The position numbers were made by a program, and so were the translations under genes. Below are positions 4,203 through 23,236 of a stretch of DNA of 23,400 bases, one piece after another (the stretch's first letter is position 1; every line of letters starts with the position of its first letter). Location of the stretch: positions 1 to 23,400 of the IMG/VR virus record IMGVR_UViG_3300044996_000770. The stretch is one strand, 5' to 3'. Source of the DNA: a virus. The notes beneath the pieces are model-generated. The model worked only from the letters and a program-made list of their open reading frames with translations. It searched no databases and was not told the origin of the DNA.

Positions 4203-7200
4203 TCAACGTTTCCACCACTCGCCTGCAGCCTTTACATCTTCCGGCGTGGCGGCACGCCACAAGCGAATTGCCCCACCGCGATCTCGGCAGACAATCAGAT
4301 TCCTCTCTGGCCAAAAGGCTAGGCCTTCGTCTATTGACCTGTTCTGCATGAGGCGGAATTTCTGCTGACGTGTAGGCAGATCCCAGAGTACTGCAACGCC
4401 CTCTCCCCCAGCCGAAACGAGCGTCCTCGCATCACCCATGAAAATGAGCGAGCAGACCTGTTTAGTGTGTTGCCCCAGAACATAGGTCGTGTCTTCAGTG
4501 CCGGTTCTGTCCCGCAACTTAATCGTTCCGTCAAGTCCCCCTGACGCCATGATCTTGCCGTCCGGAGAGAACGCCACACACCACACCTCGTCGCTGTGGT
4601 CATGGTAGGTGCCGATAAGATTGCCCATTTCTGCGTTCCAGAGCTTCACAGTGTGGTCGGCGCCGCCAGAGGCCAATACTTTTCCGCCCCGCCCAAACCC
4701 GAGACACGTCACTGCGCCTTCGTGACCCGCTAGTCGGCGCTGCAGACGTGGGGGATCGAGTCCACAGAGTGTCACCGAGCCATCGTTGGCGCCGACGGCA
4801 ATGACACTCCCGTCGTCAGACGATGTCAACTTCGTCACGGTCGCGCTACCACGCAGCTGAATTGGCTTCAACCAAGCGCTCTCCTGCAGATCCCAAAGGT
4901 TGATCCTATCAGGAAGTGCTACAGCGAGCACGGCACCGCGGCACCTTGTGATGTCTCGAATCAGCCTTGTCCCAGTGTCGACACAAGCCGCCTCTTTTCC
5001 AGCCTGCAACGACAATAACGTCACCGATCCGCTAATGGCTCCGTCGCCAATGTCTCGTGCGAATACAGCCAAAACCTCTTGCTCCGGAAAGACTACTAGC
5101 TTGCCACCGCCGCTCTGCGAGGCAAATGTCTCCAGTTCCTGTTGGTCAAACTTCCACAGCTTCACCGACCGATCATAGTCGGCAGCTGCCAAGACACTGC
5201 CGTCGAACGAAATCGCAACTGACTCAACGCCAAAGGAATGCCCCTTCAGCGTTGTATATAAAGTCTGTGACGTCACGTCCCACAAATTGACGGTGTTGTC
5301 ACGACTTCCGGACGCGAGTATTTTCCCATCCGGTAGAAACGCCAACGATTGCACTTCATCCCGGTGGCCCCTAAAGGTTGCCACGTCTTTTCCGCTTATC
5401 GAATTCCATAACTTGACAATTCCATCATCGCCTGCGGATGCAAGGAGCTCACCGTTTGGCTGAAATGCAACGGACCTGACTACGTCTGTGTGTCCCTGAA
5501 GCTTGAACATCTCTTGCTTCGAGTCCAAATTCCACACCCTGACGGTCCGATCTCCGCTTCCGGAAGCGAGGAGCTTCCCATCTGAGGAGTACGCGACGGA
5601 CGTGACGCGATGTGAATGCCCGCGGAACTGTTCCTCTATTTCGCCCGTGTCAACACGTCGAATCTCGATGGTGTTGTCTCGGCCGCACGACGCCAAAGAC
5701 TTTCCGTCCGACGAGAACACCGCCGATTGATATTCGTCGTAATTGCCCGTGCTAATGTCTTCCAGCTTTGTTCCTCCGGACACTCGCCAGATAATGATTG
5801 TCCCATCTTGACTCGCCGTCGCGAGGAGCGCTCCGTTGGGAGAAAAGGAAATCGAGACAACCGTGTCTTTGTGACCATGGAGTGGTATGGCTTCCTTGTT
5901 GCTGTCGAAGTGCCAGATTGTGAGAAGGCCGTTCTGCCCTCCGGTCGCTAACACTCTCTCAGTCGGCGAGAACGCAACCTCGTACACCTTATCCGGCTGG
6001 GGCACATTCGTCGCACGCTTGGTTCTCTGACAGAGCCTCCAGAGGTAGTACCACTCAAATCCTCGTAGATCTTGCTGGTCGTGCTCCGGTTCGTGCCTCT
6101 TGAGCAGCATTACAGTACGATCCACCTCGTTCTCTTCCCAAGCATGTGAGGCGGCGATCATATCACTCGCATATTGTTGACAACGGCGGCGTTCCGCTTC
6201 TTCTTGAGCAAGCACTCTCGCCTCATTTGCCTCGCTCGCGTTGTTGCTGGCGACTACGGCGAAGTGCGACGACAACAACGAACCTGCAACCAGCAGGATT
6301 GCGACCACTGTAACAAGAGTCGCCACTTGGGGATTCCGCCGAGACCATCGCCAGACTCGCTCCGTTGGTCTCACAGGCCGCGCGTGTATCGGGATATTCT
6401 TAAGGAACCTTCGCAGGTCCGCCGCAACATCTGACGAAGTGGCATAACGTCGATTTAGGTCCTTCTCCAGACACTTCAGACAGATGGTCTCCAGATCCCG
6501 CGGCACACTGCCGTTCAGCCGCCTGGGACTAGGCGGCTCGTCGTTGACCACCTGATGCATGAGCATGCGGACATTCCCACGGAACGGTCGCTCCCCCGTG
6601 AGCATCTCGAACAGGATCACGCCCAGCGAGTACACGTCGCTCCGCCGATCCGCCGTGTGCGCTGCCCCCTTCGCCTGTTCGGGAGACATGTACGCCGGTG
6701 TCCCCAGCACGCGCCCCTCGACGGTCATGGTTACCTCGCCGGCCTCACGCCGAGCCAACCCGAAATCCATGATGTGCGGCTCGCCAGCGGCATCCAACAT
6801 GATGTTGCCCGGCTTCAGGTCCCGGTGAATGACGCCGTGCTCGTGGGCGTGGTGCAGGGCATCGGCGATCTTGGCGCACAGCTCGGCGGCTTCCCGCACT
6901 GAGAACCGTTGGGCCGTAAGCCGATCCGCGAGCGTCGTGCCCTCGACGAAATCACTGACGATGAACACCGTGTCATCCGCACGACCGACTTCGTGGACGC
7001 TCACAATGCCCGGATGGCGCAGCTGAGCAGCCGCTCGCGCCTCCCGTAGAAACTGCTCCGTCTCTTCGGGGTCCAGCTGTCCCTTGCGGGGTATCTTGAT
7101 GGCCACCGTGCGGTCCAGGTCCGTGTCTCGAGCTTTCCACACGAAGCCGAACGTGCCCACGCCGATCTTGTCCACGAGCTCGAAGTGGCCGATCGTCTTG

Positions 7201-7340
7201 GTGCCAGTCTCATACGCGACGGTTTCGGCGGTGCCCAGGAGACTGAAGCTGCTGCCGCACGCCGGACACGCGATGTCGGAGAGCTGACCGTCGCCATCCA
7301 GATCAATCGGAGCGTGGCATTGGGGACAGCGAACTTGCAT
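4203..7340 (-). CDS. Membrane Ser/Thr protein kinase with WD40 repeat C-terminus
   Basis: A Hanks-type Ser/Thr kinase of 1045 residues from the ATG at 7340-7338 (an in-frame ATG at 7394 would add 18 residues). It opens with a zinc ribbon, CPQC at 5-8 and CPAC at 25-28. The kinase domain follows: Gly-rich loop GVGTFG at 60-65, ATP-binding Lys82 (VAIKIP), HRDLKPGN at 172-179, DFG at 192-194 and GTPAYMSPE at 213-221. One transmembrane helix lies at about 339-363. From about residue 430 to the end there are roughly 13-14 WD40 blades (repeated GH ... LASGS.D.TVKLWN pattern), enough for two propellers. All catalytic residues are present. The kinase probably faces the cytoplasm with the propellers outside. 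It lies antisense between two plus-strand blocks, and its WD40 part is lower in GC than its kinase part. Substrate unknown. Confidence 0.97.
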   Translation of the reverse strand: MQVRCPQCHAPIDLDGDGQLSDIACPACGSSFSLLGTAETVAYETGTKTIGHFELVDKIGVGTFGFVWKARDTDLDRTVAIKIPRKGQLDPEETEQFLREARAAAQLRHPGIVSVHEVGRADDTVFIVSDFVEGTTLADRLTAQRFSVREAAELCAKIADALHHAHEHGVIHRDLKPGNIMLDAAGEPHIMDFGLARREAGEVTMTVEGRVLGTPAYMSPEQAKGAAHTADRRSDVYSLGVILFEMLTGERPFRGNVRMLMHQVVNDEPPSPRRLNGSVPRDLETICLKCLEKDLNRRYATSSDVAADLRRFLKNIPIHARPVRPTERVWRWSRRNPQVATLVTVVAILLVAGSLLSSHFAVVASNNASEANEARVLAQEEAERRRCQQYASDMIAASHAWEENEVDRTVMLLKRHEPEHDQQDLRGFEWYYLWRLCQRTKRATNVPQPDKVYEVAFSPTERVLATGGQNGLLTIWHFDSNKEAIPLHGHKDTVVSISFSPNGALLATASQDGTIIIWRVSGGTKLEDISTGNYDEYQSAVFSSDGKSLASCGRDNTIEIRRVDTGEIEEQFRGHSHRVTSVAYSSDGKLLASGSGDRTVRVWNLDSKQEMFKLQGHTDVVRSVAFQPNGELLASAGDDGIVKLWNSISGKDVATFRGHRDEVQSLAFLPDGKILASGSRDNTVNLWDVTSQTLYTTLKGHSFGVESVAISFDGSVLAAADYDRSVKLWKFDQQELETFASQSGGGKLVVFPEQEVLAVFARDIGDGAISGSVTLLSLQAGKEAACVDTGTRLIRDITRCRGAVLAVALPDRINLWDLQESAWLKPIQLRGSATVTKLTSSDDGSVIAVGANDGSVTLCGLDPPRLQRRLAGHEGAVTCLGFGRGGKVLASGGADHTVKLWNAEMGNLIGTYHDHSDEVWCVAFSPDGKIMASGGLDGTIKLRDRTGTEDTTYVLGQHTKQVCSLIFMGDARTLVSAGGEGVAVLWDLPTRQQKFRLMQNRSIDEGLAFWPERNLIVCRDRGGAIRLWRAATPEDVKAAGEWWKR

Positions 7341-7487
7341 GGCCAGTACCCTGGATAACCTCGATTGGGGTGCGGACTCTGGCTGAACGCCCATCAGTTT
7401 GGCTGGCCCGCAATGCCGTGACAAGCTCCACCGGACGCCCCCCGGAACGGTTGGGTATTGTCCGCGACGCGTCGGTTTCCAGGGTGT

Positions 7488-7526
7488 CGAGTTGCAGTTG
7501 CGCCGTTTTCGTGCAACTGCAACTCG
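7488..7526. repeat. Perfect 14-bp inverted repeat with 11-base loop
   Basis: CGAGTTGCAGTTGC at 7488-7501 is the exact reverse complement of 7513-7526, with 11 bases between. There is no T tract behind it in either direction, so an operator or a 5' leader hairpin is more likely than a terminator. It lies about 150 bases from each of the divergent kinase and sigma factor starts, a good position for a site controlling both. Confidence 0.6.
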
Positions 7527-7605
7527 CATTTCTTGGAATCCTAGCCGCTGGCAGCATAGCGACTTGCGTCTTGCCGCCAATTTCTTTCGCCGATTTCGTG
7601 CAACT
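7501..7605. repeat. Direct repeat CGCCG(T/A)TTTCGTGCAACT, two copies 87 bases apart
   Basis: CGCCGTTTTCGTGCAACT at 7501-7518 returns at 7588-7605 with a single T to A change. The first copy covers the loop and right arm of the inverted repeat at 7488-7526; the second lies about 65 bases before the sigma factor start. Seventeen of 18 bases shared in a short intergenic region suggests binding sites for one regulator, possibly the HTH-like protein or the sigma factor itself (inference). Confidence 0.55.
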
Positions 7606-7670
7606 CCGGCGGTGGGTGTTGCCGTGCGTCGGGCACGGCGGGAATCAAACACCCCGCTGGAGATTGCGGA

Positions 7671-8312
7671 ATGAAAACGCTTCCCGTTTCAAGGAGCAAG
7701 GGCGGCACATCAACACCAGCCTGTCAGGAACTCGATGCTTTCACTTGCGGATACGTGCGCAAGGCGGCGAGGCAACTCGCCGGCCAATACGGCTTCCGGC
7801 GCGGCGACCGGGATGAAATCGAACAGCGGCTCTATCTCAAACTTGTCCGTCGCCTGCACCAAGCCGATCCGCAGGACCCGAAGTGGAAGGCCTTCGTGGC
7901 CAAGACTGTCAGCCGCCACATCGCCAGCATGATCCGCGATGCCAGGGCCGAAAAACGGGACCACCGCCGCACGACGTCCATTCACGTCGTAATCGGATCC
8001 GACGACAGCGGGCCGATCGAACTCGCGGACACGATCGGCGAAGACGAAACCCCGTCCCGGCGCCTGCGGGATTTGCGCGGCGCGCAGGATCTCACAGAAA
8101 TGCGGATCGACCTGGACGCTTGCATCGACACGCTGCCCGATGGGCGGCAACGCGAGTTCTGTGAGCGCCTCAAGCGGGACTCCATCTCCCAAGTCGCGCG
8201 AGACATGGGAATCGCGCGCACCACGCTCAACACCTGGCTCGGCAAACTGCGCCGCCGTTTCGAGGAATGCGGTCTGCGCGACTACGTCGAGCGTCCTTCG
8301 TCAGTTCGCTGA
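7671..8312 (+). CDS. RNA polymerase sigma-70 family factor
   Basis: A 213-residue sigma-70-like protein, about the size of ECF-type factors. Region 2-like residues 26-98 include DRDEIEQRLYLKLVRRLHQA and WKAFVAKTVSRHIASMIRDA, matching the core-binding/-10 recognition helices. Region 4-like residues 146-198 end in a helix-turn-helix, SISQVARDMGIARTTLNTWL, expected to read the -35 element. No extra C-terminal domain is present. The ATG at 7671 has GGAG eight bases upstream. It is the first gene of a long plus-strand run of replication and recombination genes, so it may direct host RNA polymerase to that operon or to later genes (inference). It could also be a phage-type transcription regulator with sigma-like fold. 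Confidence 0.85.
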   Translation: MKTLPVSRSKGGTSTPACQELDAFTCGYVRKAARQLAGQYGFRRGDRDEIEQRLYLKLVRRLHQADPQDPKWKAFVAKTVSRHIASMIRDARAEKRDHRRTTSIHVVIGSDDSGPIELADTIGEDETPSRRLRDLRGAQDLTEMRIDLDACIDTLPDGRQREFCERLKRDSISQVARDMGIARTTLNTWLGKLRRRFEECGLRDYVERPSSVR

Positions 8313-15815: not shown

Positions 15816-16476
15816 TGTGACGTTCATCGCTTGCGGCCACTGTGCGGCCGAGGGGGAGGTCGCGCTGCCTCCCCACGGGGCCCCAGGACCACTGGTCTGC
15901 ACGCACTGCGGCGCCCTGATCAGCATGATCAGCGTCGAGCCATGGCAGGGATACATTGAACGGCGGGTGGCGCAGTATGCCGAATGCCAGCGATCCGGAC
16001 GGCTGGGGAGCAGGAAGCAGTCGTTTGGCCAGTCCGACCAGAGCATCGACCGCGATGGCCGGGAAGCCGAGCTGGCCGCCTGCCTGCTCTTGTGTCCGGG
16101 ACAACGCCACCATTGGCAGACAGCCGAGGGACCCAACCGGGGCAATGACCTGCCCGCTGAGTGGACGCTGCTGCCCAGACCCGTGGAAGTCAAGCAGACC
16201 CGCTACTGCGACGATCGTCGCGGTTGTCTCATCGTCCGCCCGCCACGAGGCACGCCCGGCCCGATGCGGCCCGAGTACGTCGACGACTGCCTGTACGTGC
16301 TCATGCACGGCCAGCGGGGGCTGTTCACGCTGTTGGGCTGGACGGACCGTGCGCATCTGTTGAGCGTCGGCGAGCTGAACCCAATTCCTGTTCGGCCCGG
16401 ACAACGGGAGTGTTGGGGAATGCATTGGATGCAGCTGCGAAGTCCGAGTTCGCTATTGGAGATCCTGCCGCGGTAG
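15808..16476 (+). CDS. Zinc-ribbon protein with putative PD-(D/E)XK nuclease motif
   Basis: A 222-residue protein not recognised as a named family. The N-terminus has CGHC at 9-12 and CTHC at 31-34, a zinc ribbon. Further on, REAELA (Glu86), GNDLP (Asp114) and VEVKQT (Glu127, Lys129) have the order and spacing of a PD-(D/E)XK active site, followed by strand-like segments CLIVRPPR and DDCLYVLMHG. It starts at ATG 15808, overlapping the methyltransferase stop by eight bases, and ends 17 bases before the primase start. A nuclease that works with the methyltransferase or with the primase is a reasonable guess; the nuclease reading is by eye and needs a structure-based check. Alternatively it is a DNA-binding protein without activity. 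Confidence 0.8.
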   Translation: MPDVTFIACGHCAAEGEVALPPHGAPGPLVCTHCGALISMISVEPWQGYIERRVAQYAECQRSGRLGSRKQSFGQSDQSIDRDGREAELAACLLLCPGQRHHWQTAEGPNRGNDLPAEWTLLPRPVEVKQTRYCDDRRGCLIVRPPRGTPGPMRPEYVDDCLYVLMHGQRGLFTLLGWTDRAHLLSVGELNPIPVRPGQRECWGMHWMQLRSPSSLLEILPR

Positions 16477-16493
16477 CCACGGAGGTGTTCTGG

Positions 16494-19055
16494 ATGGTCA
16501 ACGCCCAGCGAGGGAATCTGGACGCGGTGTTCCGCAATGCTCCGGCCTGCCTGCGCGATCGCCGGCAGTGGGTGGCGTGGAAGTACGTGGAGCGCGACGG
16601 GAAGCCAACGAAAGCGCCCGTCAATCCGCTCACAGGCGGACTGGCCGACTCCACGGACCCGGCGACGTGGGGCTCATTTGATGAAGCGGTCGCGGCGTGG
16701 CAGCAATCGTCCGAACTGGCCGGTATCGGCTTCGTCTTCTCCCAGGACGATCCGTACTGCGGCGTGGACCTCGACGATGCGCTGGATCCGGCCAGTCGAG
16801 AGATCAAAGGCTGGGGCGTGGCGATCATCGATCGCCTGGCCAGTTACACCGAGGTCAGTCCGTCTGGGACTGGCGTCAAAGCGTTCATCAAGGCCACCAA
16901 GCCCGGCTCCCGCTGCCGCAAGGCGTACGCGGACGGCGAAGTTGAGATCTACGACCGCGACCGCTTCTTCACGGTGACGGGACTCCGACTGACCGACATG
17001 CCACCCGACGTGGAGTTGCGGCAGGAGGAATTGGAATCCGTCTACGTCGCGGTGTTCGGCGAGGACGGCAAGAGCGGGATACAGGCCGCGGCACCGTCCA
17101 GTCCTCCCTCCGACAGCGGGCCCGTGCAGCTTGATGATGACGAGATCATCCGGTTGGCGTCCAGCCAACGGCGCAGCGGCCAGAAATTCGCCACGCTGTG
17201 GGCCGGCAACTGGAATGCCCACTTCAATTCGGCCAGTGAGGCCGATTCCTCGGTCGTTTTCACCCTGGCGTTCTACACGAAGGACGCGGCGCAAATCGAC
17301 CGGCTGTTTCGGCAGTCAGGACTGATGCGCCCCAAATGGGACGAATTGCACGGCGAGCAGACGTACGGCGAGACGACCATTGCCAAGGCACTCGCCAAAG
17401 TCACGAAACAGTACTCACCGAAACGCAAACGCAAATCCTGTCGCCCATCGCCACCGCCGCCCAAGAATCCCGGCCTGCCCTCTATCGTTATTGACGACAC
17501 ACAGCTCAACGAGCTTACGGACAAAGCGCTGGCCGCCGTCATCCACGCCAACACTCCGCCACGCGTGTTCGTGCGTGCCGGGAACCTGGCTCGGGTGGTA
17601 CGCGACGAGAACGGACTACCCAAGATCGAGCCGTTCGACCGCGTGCGCATGCGCTGTCGACTGTCGGAGGTCGCCAATTTCTTCACGCTCCGCAAAGGCG
17701 AGGGCGGCTACGAGCAAGTCGGCACCAATCCGCCGTTGTCGTTGGCCGAAAATGTTCTCGCGCAGACTGCCTGGAACCTCCCACCGCTGGCCGGCTTGGC
17801 ACGGGCGCCTATTCTGCGACACGATGGGACCATTTGCACGCAGCCAGGCTACGATCCGGTGTCGCGGCTCGTATACAGCCCCGACCCGAATCTTGTGCTC
17901 ACGGCCATTCCACCATTCCCGACCACGGATGAGGTTCAGGCCTGCGTCGATATCCTACTGAATGTCATTCGCGATTTTCCGTTCGCCGACGACGCCAGCC
18001 GCGCTAACGCGTTGGCCATTCTGTTCACGCTGCTCATGAGGCCTGTGCTCACAGGGTGCGTGCCGTTGGCCATTATTGACGCCCCCGTCCAGGGAACGGG
18101 CAAGAGCCTGCTCGTCACGTCGCTGGCGACCATTGCAGTCGGTAACGTGCCCAGCGAGTCGATTCCCACGCGAGACAACGACGAGGAATGGCGGAAGAAG
18201 ATCACATCGATCCTTTTGTACGCATCGCCCTTCGTGCATCTCGATAACATCCCGGACAACACGACCATCAACTCGCCGTCGCTCGCTGCCGCGCTCACCA
18301 CGGCCGAATGGTCGGATCGCATCCTGGGTCGCAGCGAGATCATTTGCTTGCCGTCGCGCTCCGTGTGGGCCGCCACGGGCAATAACCTGCGTGTGACGGG
18401 AGACTTGCCCAGACGCAGCTACAGCATCCGTCTTGACGCCAACGAGGAACGACCCTGGACTCGCACAGGGTTCAAGATCAAGGACCTGAAGTCGTATGTC
18501 CCCGCGCACCGCGGCAACTTGCTCTCTGCCGCGCTCACCATCATTCGGGGCTGGTACACCAACGGGAAGCCGATCATCGACGTGCCCGCTCTCGGCAGCT
18601 TTGAACAGTGGGCCAGCACCGTAGGGAGCGTATTGGCGTTCGCCGGAGTCGAAGGCTTTCTCTCCAACCTCGAGCGGACTCAGTTGATCCAGGACGACGA
18701 CACGTCGCAGTGGACCGCGTTCTTTGACGTCTGGTGGGACCGCTTCGGCGAGGAAGAAGTAACAGCAGATAGGCTGGCGCGCCTGATCCTGCCGCGCAAG
18801 GACGCCTCGGACACTGCCCCCAGCGACCCACTCGTTGAGTCACTACCTGAACCTCTGCTCGTCAACAGGGATCGGGGTGAAGGTTCGCTGAAGCGGTCCA
18901 TCGGTAGAAACCTGTCGCGACTTACAGGACGGATCTTCGAGCGCCGGAAGCTCTGCGCGGCCGGTGAGGAGAAGAAGCGGCATGTCCGGAAATGGCGATT
19001 GAAACCCATGGTTTCAACGGCTGCAGACGAGCTGCCTACCGAGGAGTTTGTGTGA
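16494..19055 (+). CDS. Primase-polymerase (AEP-like) / helicase fusion, replication protein
   Basis: An 853-residue replication protein. The N-terminal part resembles archaeo-eukaryotic primase-polymerases of phage/plasmid type: WVAWKYVERDGKPTKAPVNP near residue 26, GIGFVFSQDDPYCGVDLDD with acidic residues 92, 94 and 95 as metal ligands, SPSGTGVKAFIK near 122, and EIYDRDRFFTVTG near 151. The C-terminal part has an ATPase core: APVQGTGKSL (530-539, Walker A), FVHLDNI near 580 (Walker B) and WAATGNNL near 623 (sensor). A basic, Pro-rich linker lies near 310-325. ATG 16494 has GGAGG eight bases upstream; the longer frame from 16161 overlaps the previous gene and is unlikely. It should start and drive replication of the element. 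A repeat cluster follows directly after it, a possible origin. Confidence 0.93.
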   Translation: MVNAQRGNLDAVFRNAPACLRDRRQWVAWKYVERDGKPTKAPVNPLTGGLADSTDPATWGSFDEAVAAWQQSSELAGIGFVFSQDDPYCGVDLDDALDPASREIKGWGVAIIDRLASYTEVSPSGTGVKAFIKATKPGSRCRKAYADGEVEIYDRDRFFTVTGLRLTDMPPDVELRQEELESVYVAVFGEDGKSGIQAAAPSSPPSDSGPVQLDDDEIIRLASSQRRSGQKFATLWAGNWNAHFNSASEADSSVVFTLAFYTKDAAQIDRLFRQSGLMRPKWDELHGEQTYGETTIAKALAKVTKQYSPKRKRKSCRPSPPPPKNPGLPSIVIDDTQLNELTDKALAAVIHANTPPRVFVRAGNLARVVRDENGLPKIEPFDRVRMRCRLSEVANFFTLRKGEGGYEQVGTNPPLSLAENVLAQTAWNLPPLAGLARAPILRHDGTICTQPGYDPVSRLVYSPDPNLVLTAIPPFPTTDEVQACVDILLNVIRDFPFADDASRANALAILFTLLMRPVLTGCVPLAIIDAPVQGTGKSLLVTSLATIAVGNVPSESIPTRDNDEEWRKKITSILLYASPFVHLDNIPDNTTINSPSLAAALTTAEWSDRILGRSEIICLPSRSVWAATGNNLRVTGDLPRRSYSIRLDANEERPWTRTGFKIKDLKSYVPAHRGNLLSAALTIIRGWYTNGKPIIDVPALGSFEQWASTVGSVLAFAGVEGFLSNLERTQLIQDDDTSQWTAFFDVWWDRFGEEEVTADRLARLILPRKDASDTAPSDPLVESLPEPLLVNRDRGEGSLKRSIGRNLSRLTGRIFERRKLCAAGEEKKRHVRKWRLKPMVSTAADELPTEEFV

Positions 19056-19129
19056 ACTCGCCGCAAAGAAGGAGGCGCTCACGTGGTTCATTGTCCCTGG
19101 ACTAGGTGCGTCCTTGTCGTCGAAAACGT

Positions 19130-19303
19130 AACCTCGCCGCGAAACCTGCGCCATATCAAGCACTTACGGAAATGGCGAGGTTTGGCGAGGTTATTTCCCT
19201 GCCAATACACACGCGAGAATGTACGCACGCAATAAGGACGAGCGCGCAAAAGCGCATATAGAAGTAGTAGGGAAATAACCTCCAGAAACCTCTAACCTCG
19301 CCA
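19130..19303. repeat. Cluster of GGCGAGGTT repeats with a 14-bp inverted repeat: candidate origin or operator
   Basis: GGCGAGGTT or its complement occurs four times: 19130-19138 (minus), 19174-19182 and 19184-19192 (plus; TGGCGAGGTT twice in tandem, exactly 10 bases apart), and 19294-19302 (minus). GAGGTTATTTCCCT (19187-19200) is the perfect reverse complement of 19269-19282, with 68 bases between. Together they form a larger imperfect palindrome, 19173-19200 against 19269-19303. TCGAAAAC flanks the cluster at 19120-19127 and 19318-19325. The surroundings are the longest non-coding gap after the primase gene (19056-19381). Iteron-like repeats beside a replication initiator suggest an origin; an operator or promoter array is the alternative. 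Confidence 0.7.
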
Positions 19304-19381
19304 CGGAATGCCTGCGCTCGAAAACTCCCGGACGTGTCCGTCGACCGTTTTGCAGTTAATCCAACCCCGGAGATCCCACGC

Positions 19382-20044
19382 ATGTATGCTCACGAACGTA
19401 CGATGCTCGCCCGACTCGGCTTCGCCGATCCCGATCGCCGTGAACATTTGCACGACCTTGCCTGCCAGTATCTGGCAACGCCCGATGCGGTGCGACGGTT
19501 GATCACACATCTTGGTGTCGAGCGCGGGCCCACGCAGCACATGGAGGGGCAAGATCCTCAAGTGCGTTCGCTGGTTTCATGGGAAGTGCCATCCCACTTT
19601 GTGAATCATGAGGTCGAAATCTCAAAGGGTCATGGCGAGTACCGCACAACCATCGGCTTTGCGGATCTCGTTCTTACTCTAAACCGCTGGGAACGACATG
19701 TGAACGTTGAGCAGCGGAAACAGTTGTGGAGAAACGGCAATCGCCGGCAGGAGTGGTCCGATTGGGAGTCCCATCCCGATATCACGTATCGCATGCGAGC
19801 ACAGTATGGCGTGGAGGTGAAGATCACTCCAACACCCACCAGTGACGTGATTCGCCAGGTGAAGCTCTACCGCTCGTATTCCGGAATCGACAACTGGATT
19901 GTGGCCACCGCCTACGGCCTGGTCTTCCACGATGTGGCTCTCTTGGAGAATGAAAAGATCGGCCACATCCGGCTCGGCGAGCGATTTCAAGAGTACGTCG
20001 CCATGCGGCAGGCCGCTGAACTGGAAACAGGCGTGGAGATCTGA
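19382..20044 (+). CDS. Putative PD-(D/E)XK-fold protein beside the repeat cluster
   Basis: A 220-residue protein from ATG 19382, which has GGAG nine bases upstream; a GTG at 19334 would add 16 residues. The family is not recognised. IGFADLVLTL (Asp95), VEVKITPT (Glu145, Lys147) and SDVIRQVKLYRSY (154-166) match the order of PD-(D/E)XK active sites, where a Gln/Arg helix often follows the E-x-K strand; then comes NWIVATAYGL. The N-terminus is helical (MLARLGFADPDRREHLHDLA). Such proteins can be nucleases or structural DNA binders. It follows the candidate origin by about 80 bases, so a replication or resolution role is possible. Nuclease activity is inference. Confidence 0.85.
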   Translation: MYAHERTMLARLGFADPDRREHLHDLACQYLATPDAVRRLITHLGVERGPTQHMEGQDPQVRSLVSWEVPSHFVNHEVEISKGHGEYRTTIGFADLVLTLNRWERHVNVEQRKQLWRNGNRRQEWSDWESHPDITYRMRAQYGVEVKITPTPTSDVIRQVKLYRSYSGIDNWIVATAYGLVFHDVALLENEKIGHIRLGERFQEYVAMRQAAELETGVEI

Positions 20045-21819: not shown

Positions 21820-21892
21820 TCGGGATCGATTGGCCATTTGGAACATCAGGCCGGGGTGGAATCCCGGCGACAACAACGAGGAGAACGGAATC

Positions 21893-23236
21893 GTGAAAGT
21901 CGAACAATGGGACATCGATCGCGTCAAACCGTATCCGGGAAACCCGCGCCGCAACGAGGCGGCGATCGAGCCGGTGTCGCGGTCGATTCAGGAATGGGGC
22001 TTTCGGCAGCCGCTGGTCGTCGAACCAGACGGCACGATCGTCGTGGGGCACACGCGCTGGTTGGCAGCCAAGAAGCTGGGGCTGAAGAAGGTGCCCGTGC
22101 ATGTGGCGAAGGACCTCACACCGGAGCAGATCAAGGCCTACCGCCTGGCCGACAATCGTCTGGCCGAGATCGCCACATGGGACGCCGAGTTGCTGCCGAT
22201 CGAACTGGCCGAACTGCAGGGCCTGGACTACGACCTGAGCCTGCTGGGTTTTGACCAGGAAGACCTGGCCAAGCTCCTGGACCCCGGCGTGAAGGATGGC
22301 TTGTGCGATCCCGATGAGGTCCCCGAACCGCCCGATGAAGCCATCACGCAGCCGGGCGACCTGTGGATACTGGGCGAGCACCGGTTGCTGTGTGGCGACT
22401 CGGGGAGTGCCGCTGACGTGGATCGCCTGTTGAATGGTGCCGAGGTGCACCTTGTGAACACGGATCCTCCTTACGGAGTCCGCGTCGAACCGCGGAGCAA
22501 CAACGCCATCGCGGCCGGGCTCAGTTCCTTCCAAGGCACGAAGCATCACCAGAAGTTCGACGTCGAGCGGCATCCGGAGAAAGCGAAGCCAACGGGGAAG
22601 AAGCTGCGTGCCAAGGATCGGCCGCTGGTCAATGACTTTGTCAGTGACGAAGAGTTCGATCGCTTGCTGCACGCATGGTTCGGCAACCTGGCGCGCGTGT
22701 TGCTACCAGGCCGAAGCTTTTACATCTGGGGAGGTTACGCGAACCTCGGGAATTATCCGCCCGTCTTGAAGGCCCACAAACTCTATTTCTCGCAAGGGGT
22801 TGTGTGGGACAAATGCCATCCGGTGTTGACGAGAAAAGACTTCATGGGCGCGTTTGAAATTGCGTTTTACGGTTGGAGAGAAGGGGCCGCTCACCGGTTC
22901 TACGGACCCAACAATGTGACTGACCTATGGCAAGTGAAGAAAATCCCGCCTCAGAAGCTCGAGCATCTGACGGGCAAGCCGGCCGAACTGGCCGTCCGTG
23001 CGCTGCAGTACTCGTCGGTCCAAGGCGAGAACGTACTGGACCTGTTTGGCGGAAGTGGATCCACGTTGATTGGCGCCGAGCAAACTGGCCGTCGTGGCTT
23101 TCTCATGGAGATTGACCCGCTCTACGCGGACATCATCGCGGATCGCTTCCAGCGGTTCACCGGCAAGCCGGCCGTGCTGGAGCGCACGGGTGAATCGCCG
23201 ATTCCCATGAAGCCGCGCGAGGAACACATGCGATGA
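21893..23236 (+). CDS. ParB-like domain fused to DNA methyltransferase (second copy)
   Basis: A 447-residue fusion of a ParB-like domain and a beta-class methyltransferase. GTG 21893 has GAGGAG nine bases upstream, and MKVEQWDIDRVKPYPGNPR is a typical start of this family; TTG 21830 is less likely. The ParB-like domain (1-90) has GFRQPLVV and the GHTRWLAAKKLG signature. The methyltransferase shows DPPYGV (191-196) and DLFGGSGST (383-391), again catalytic motif before AdoMet motif. The region between them is long and differs from that of the first fusion, so the DNA target is probably different. It should methylate N6-adenine or N4-cytosine. No matching restriction enzyme is seen. Its stop overlaps the next start (ATGA). 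Confidence 0.95.
   Translation: MKVEQWDIDRVKPYPGNPRRNEAAIEPVSRSIQEWGFRQPLVVEPDGTIVVGHTRWLAAKKLGLKKVPVHVAKDLTPEQIKAYRLADNRLAEIATWDAELLPIELAELQGLDYDLSLLGFDQEDLAKLLDPGVKDGLCDPDEVPEPPDEAITQPGDLWILGEHRLLCGDSGSAADVDRLLNGAEVHLVNTDPPYGVRVEPRSNNAIAAGLSSFQGTKHHQKFDVERHPEKAKPTGKKLRAKDRPLVNDFVSDEEFDRLLHAWFGNLARVLLPGRSFYIWGGYANLGNYPPVLKAHKLYFSQGVVWDKCHPVLTRKDFMGAFEIAFYGWREGAAHRFYGPNNVTDLWQVKKIPPQKLEHLTGKPAELAVRALQYSSVQGENVLDLFGGSGSTLIGAEQTGRRGFLMEIDPLYADIIADRFQRFTGKPAVLERTGESPIPMKPREEHMR

Follow-up and report, generated by a model that had tools for sequence, protein, structure and literature searches.

A repeat cluster behind a primase-helicase gene as the probable replication origin of a planctomycete-associated phage

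What is the role of a cluster of short repeats that lies in the gap behind a phage primase-helicase gene? The locus lies in the window, by which we mean the whole 23.4 kb stretch of DNA analysed here, the viral record IMGVR_UViG_3300044996_000770, which is linear and possibly partial. A preliminary description, made from the letters of the window, proposed a replication origin and named an operator for the genes to the right as the main alternative. Comparison of sequences leads us to the first of these readings: with a probability that we put at roughly 85%, a planctomycete-associated phage replicates its DNA from this cluster, which works as an origin together with the primase-helicase encoded directly upstream.

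The gene content of the window includes a RecB-like nuclease, an AAA_24 protein, DUF669, a RecD-like helicase, DNA methylases, and the primase-helicase. Because contigs of Planctomycetota metagenome-assembled genomes (MAGs) carry close relatives of this primase, the host is probably a planctomycete and the phage is probably planctomycete-associated. A search of a plasmid collection found no DNA similar to the window.

The repeat cluster and the gene before it

The gene and the parts of it that matter here are as follows.

16494..19055, + strand: primase-helicase gene, with PrimPol and HBD, a helicase with a QGTGK Walker motif, and a C-terminal predicted winged helix (PF22763, E 5e-26; NrS-1 N300 structures 6k9a/6a9w, E ~1e-37)
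17235..17420, + strand: HBD, the template-recognition domain in NrS-1 PrimPol (PF22763, ORF residues 359-420)
18849..19007, + strand: predicted C-terminal winged-helix domain, the putative iteron reader (AlphaFold2 model; recombinant comparison)
18981..18983, + strand: codon of His 816 (numbered from 16536) in the wing, which may determine the specificity for iteron base 4

Alignment favours a start at ATG 16494 over GTG 16161, the start of the longest open reading frame; GTG 16161 is probably the wrong start, and 16161-16493 would not be the beginning of the coding region. The Walker A sequence QGTGK is conserved in group A, and the protein resembles phage primase/helicase families, with no Pfam helicase model reaching threshold. 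We predict that the C-terminal tail is a winged helix. Its AlphaFold2 model (pLDDT 85) has helices (H87-93, H97-111) and strands (119-127 and 132-139), with residue 816 at the wing. VIA structural matches of the model were weak (Z 4-6) and mixed, winged helices being frequent among them, and a Foldseek search against the PDB gave no significant match.

The region behind the gene is built as follows.

19056..19381, unstranded: whole intergenic region holding the putative origin (326 bp; no Rfam match above gathering score, no promoter or terminator)
19129..19138, - strand: outer left iteron TAACCTCGCC
19173..19182, + strand: tandem iteron 1, TGGCGAGGTT
19183..19193, + strand: tandem iteron 2, TGGCGAGGTTA
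19177..19200, + strand: left arm of the large palindrome, including the 14-bp perfect arm at 19187-19200
19201..19268, unstranded: core (50% AT) enclosed by the converging iterons, where unwinding is proposed to occur (layout kept in relatives)
19269..19292, - strand: right arm, in which AACCTC recurs as two degenerate copies (19277, 19287)
19293..19303, - strand: right iteron TAACCTCGCCA

The window contains four exact copies of GGCGAGGTT against 0.31 expected, at 19130(-), 19174(+), 19184(+), and 19294(-), all of them within a stretch of 173 bp 3' of the primase (19130-19302); none of 100 shuffles reached four. The first iteron begins 73 bp past the primase stop codon, and the two copies on the + strand stand head to tail as an exact 10-base tandem. 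A perfect 14-bp inverted repeat (GAGGTTATTTCCCT at 19187-19200, AGGGAAATAACCTC at 19269-19282) is nested in 24-nt arms (19177-19200 and 19269-19292) that are 88% complementary and separated by 68 nt. This palindrome folds with a z of -5.3, a value that 0 of 200 shuffles equalled. Its arms are themselves made of iterons, degenerate AACCTC copies at 19277 and 19287 included, and extra iteron copies lie outside it. The preliminary description had seen four repeat copies in two orientations with a 10-base tandem, and a perfect 14-bp inverted repeat within a larger imperfect palindrome. Both observations hold up, as do its coordinates of 19120-19325, within which the functional part of the cluster spans about 19129-19303.

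A shared layout in relatives and in known systems

The preliminary description had proposed a search for the repeat in related elements. Scans with primase alignments yielded about 75 primase loci, and scans with the C-terminal half yielded 41 loci, several on the same contigs. The same layout follows related primases while the iteron sequence varies: tandem iterons of about 10 bp point inward on both sides of a core of about 70-100 bp. In the window's group the layout is constant and the iteron differs by clade (GCGAGGTTA, GCGGGGTTA, CCGAGGTTA, GCCGGGTTA), with GGTT(A) as its constant part. More distant relatives have GCGGGGACT, GCGGGGATA, or GTCGGTTTT, and the types in group B are GCGC-(C/A)(A/G)GGTT or GCGACGGT. 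In L002, a relative whose primase is about 80% identical, the element is 77% identical over 190 bp even though the gene at 19382 is missing there. Pattern scans of viral contigs added eight further loci with the full layout, all with the same kind of primase immediately upstream; that primase was absent from those pattern matches without the full layout that were checked. In the six records having GCGAGGTTA, all copies but one fall in a single cluster.

A motif-blind score based on exact 8-mers compared the 400 bp after the primase with every other window of the same locus. Of the 20 loci in the window's group, L032 among them, 18 had their top score in the post-primase region, as did 12 of 13 more distant loci. 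The region came out on top in few loci of group B, where the repeats are degenerate or shorter and were recognised by eye only. We left covariation of the hairpin aside, since iteron copies change together under any reader protein and would mimic base-pair covariation. The window and four longer relatives lack a clear switch in GC skew, a check that the preliminary description had suggested and that is uninformative here.

One locus, L179, encodes a DnaG-type N-terminus and yet has the same layout after the gene. In this locus and its relatives, a CHC2/Toprim DnaG-type primase is fused to a helicase-tail half of the kind that is fused to an AEP PrimPol in the window. Since the layout is kept with a DnaG-type primase, the origin goes with the helicase-tail half. 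GGTTA was considered as a universal initiation motif and rejected, as it fails in DnaG-type and other relatives.

Several known elements place an origin, or the same layout, at the corresponding position. In Lactobacillus phage A2 (AJ251789), GenBank annotates a rep_origin at 32208-32717 directly after a primase with an NrS-1-type HBD. As in the window, direct and inverted repeats point inward around a core; A2 differs in its iteron (ACGGGAGGAT), its AT-rich core, its Gram-positive host, and a C-terminal half of D5_N/DUF5906/Pox_D5 type. The layout occurs in the same place in Listeria PSA, NrS-1, Sphingomonas phage Birtae, Achromobacter phage shaaii_LB5, and Enterococcus phage phiEG37K, and automated 8-mer scoring did not pick it up behind the primases of JCL1032, SCUT-S4, Carvaje, phiAsp2, and ctUnS216.

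NrS-1 shares PrimPol-HBD homology with the window, and its recognition motif lies within an iteron cluster after the gene; its C-terminal domains and its iteron (GGTTACACTTT) differ. NrS-1 PrimPol recognises TTTGGTTA on the template and starts DNA synthesis just 5' of it (PMC8718748). We find 11 GTTACACT units directly 3' of the NrS-1 primase (AB746912, 17061-17380; 8061-8380 of locus L091), surrounding the only exact TTTGGTTA in the record, whereas two copies have been reported for this genome (PMC7102993). The stretch 17061-17380 is likely to be the NrS-1 origin. It mostly overlaps the annotated hypothetical gene NRS1_29, an annotation that may be spurious.

NrS-1-like and pRN1-like primases group together (PMC5862659). 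As predicted for the window, the Sulfolobus plasmid pRN1 (ORF904), and also phage BIP-1, combines an AEP PrimPol, a helicase, and a winged helix in one protein and has its origin directly 3' of the gene. In pRN1 the PrimPol-helicase-winged-helix gene is followed by a stem-loop of 100 nt, with a 21-nt stem and a 58-nt loop, which serves as origin and has to be intact for replication; that the replication protein binds this origin specifically could not be demonstrated (PMC4234260). The window resembles it in having a large inverted repeat with a loop of about 60-70 nt (24-nt arms, 68 nt between, z -5.3). However, the pRN1 stem-loop is described as iteron-free (PMC4234260), whereas the arms in the window are built from iterons, with extra copies outside. 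Satellite phage P4 offers a parallel in its alpha protein and ori, where primase and helicase share a single protein with a C-terminal winged helix that recognises the iterons of the origin, as predicted for the window. The P4 primase is of Toprim type (PMC4234260), unlike the AEP PrimPol at the N-terminus in the window. A second, crr-like cluster as in P4 was not seen in the 23.4 kb of the window, a linear, possibly partial record.

Thus, the best reading of the cluster is an origin of the pRN1/A2/P4 kind, a class already known from origins that follow PrimPol-helicase-winged-helix genes. The proposal of an origin in the preliminary description draws strong support from this comparison and from the position of the cluster, which is homologous to that of the annotated origin of A2 and of the genetically defined one of pRN1.

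Iteron sequence and the tail of the protein

Three natural recombinant pairs differ in which parts of the protein they share. In L095 and L096, PrimPol-HBD is 94% identical and the tail 48%, and the iterons differ (GCGGGGTT vs GCGAGGTT); DNA homology between the two stops at the HBD and resumes past the origin, with 88% nucleotide identity in the stretch that follows. L095 and L139 are 92% identical in the helicase and 49% in the tail, and L140 and L145 are 90% identical in PrimPol-HBD and 44% in the tail; in both pairs the iterons differ. At the level of sequence, these recombinants show that the iteron tracks the C-terminal tail (the last ~110 residues) and not PrimPol-HBD, the helicase, or the downstream ParB-methyltransferase. 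From this pattern it seems that the repeats are read by the tail of the primase-helicase, and that phages exchange the two together as a single unit. We regard it as good evidence for a modular, exchangeable specificity unit.

Six of about 840 aligned columns separate A-type from G-type iterons, and all six lie in the tail. Residue 816 is His in every A-type (GAGG) row and Lys or Asn in every G-type (GGGG) row, with 26 of 26 concordant. The distant L032 (His, GCGAGGTTA) fits this match, though its relatives are Lys/GCGGGG. Because the tree contains only two to three independent changes (sign test p 0.5), the residue-816 code is a hypothesis and not a proof.

A more ambitious proposal, which we advance tentatively and at not quite even odds, unites these observations. 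The tail and the iteron palindrome would form an exchangeable origin-specificity cassette, recombined between near-identical phages and paired with AEP or DnaG-type halves; His as opposed to Lys or Asn at residue 816 would switch iteron base 4 between A and G; and the NrS-1 start site would be one unit of the same kind of origin.

In two loci (L096, 7032-7376; L139, genome G001:C753:7561-7887) a small gene right 3' of the origin codes for the C-terminal tail of the primase-helicase as a separate protein. This protein may bind the same iterons and regulate copy number or transcription.

Alternative functions and a possible mechanism

Could the repeats instead be an operator or promoter, where a repressor, or the primase-helicase as autoregulator, binds to control the genes to the right? 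The cluster does lie in an intergenic gap ahead of co-directed genes, and the stand-alone tail genes of L096 and L139 could act as regulators. However, the gene that comes first downstream varies from one relative to the next without loss of the repeats, and a scan of 18900-19600 turned up neither a sigma-70-like promoter nor a terminator, so that we consider an operator quite unlikely. The iteron also occurs in one cluster per virus record and not at many promoters, and the same layout in A2 is annotated as a replication origin. The main alternative of the preliminary description is thereby weakened, and the repeat was not found upstream of many unrelated promoters, a distribution that description had said would speak against an origin. 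Its suggestion that the 19382 protein binds the site fares no better: of 17 close relatives in which this kind of origin is kept, only 2 have the gene, and a pattern scan of viral contigs found no relatives of the protein. The repeats may nonetheless have a regulatory side role besides that of an origin.

Another possibility is that the repeats are template start sites for PrimPol-HBD alone, as in NrS-1, without binding of double-stranded DNA by the tail. The constant GGTT(A) of the window's group resembles the 3' part of the NrS-1 motif TTTGGTTA, which itself lies within an iteron cluster, yet the GGTTA match could be chance, and start-site and tail-binding roles can coexist. Since the iterons of L095 and L096 differ at 94% identity in PrimPol-HBD and vary with the tail, and since the same layout occurs with a DnaG-type N-terminus, we think this explanation unlikely, if worth keeping in view. 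A partition or methylation site would call on the protein encoded at 21830-23236, a fusion of a ParB N-terminal domain with a DNA methylase; of the 17 close relatives tested, 16 have a homologue of it on the downstream side of the origin. This association is set against the 88% identity of L095 and L096 over the stretch holding the gene, where the iterons differ, and against a distance between gene and origin that varies from about 0.5 to 2.6 kb; we judge the idea very improbable. Still harder to credit is a structured RNA or transcription terminator. The single strand does fold better than shuffles, but it has no Rfam family at the gathering score (one chance match lies below it) and no terminator-like site, and the repeat copies vary in concert, as units of DNA, along with the tail of the protein.

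If the cluster is an origin, the C-terminal winged helix would bind the double-stranded iterons, with its recognition helix on the constant part and its wing on the variable bases. Helicase hexamers could then assemble from both sides and open the core, whereupon PrimPol-HBD would start DNA chains on the exposed strands. Iterons face the core in the window's group and also in A2 and PSA. Because NrS-1 PrimPol starts just 5' of its motif (PMC8718748), inward-pointing motifs would, if synthesis here begins likewise, give two diverging leading strands and thus a bidirectional origin.

Our findings assign a specific probable origin to a family of prophages and phages of planctomycetes, and tie the recognition motif of NrS-1 PrimPol to an origin-like iteron cluster in the genome of NrS-1 itself. 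Furthermore, the natural recombinants make a change of origin specificity by a replication initiator directly testable.

Elsewhere in the window, 7671-8312 has weak similarity to the phage sigma-factor family phrog_1740, and a gene at 4203-7652 (-) encodes a Ser/Thr kinase-WD40 protein of 1149 aa. The latter is oriented opposite to the adjoining phage replication genes and is possibly a host gene or a passenger.
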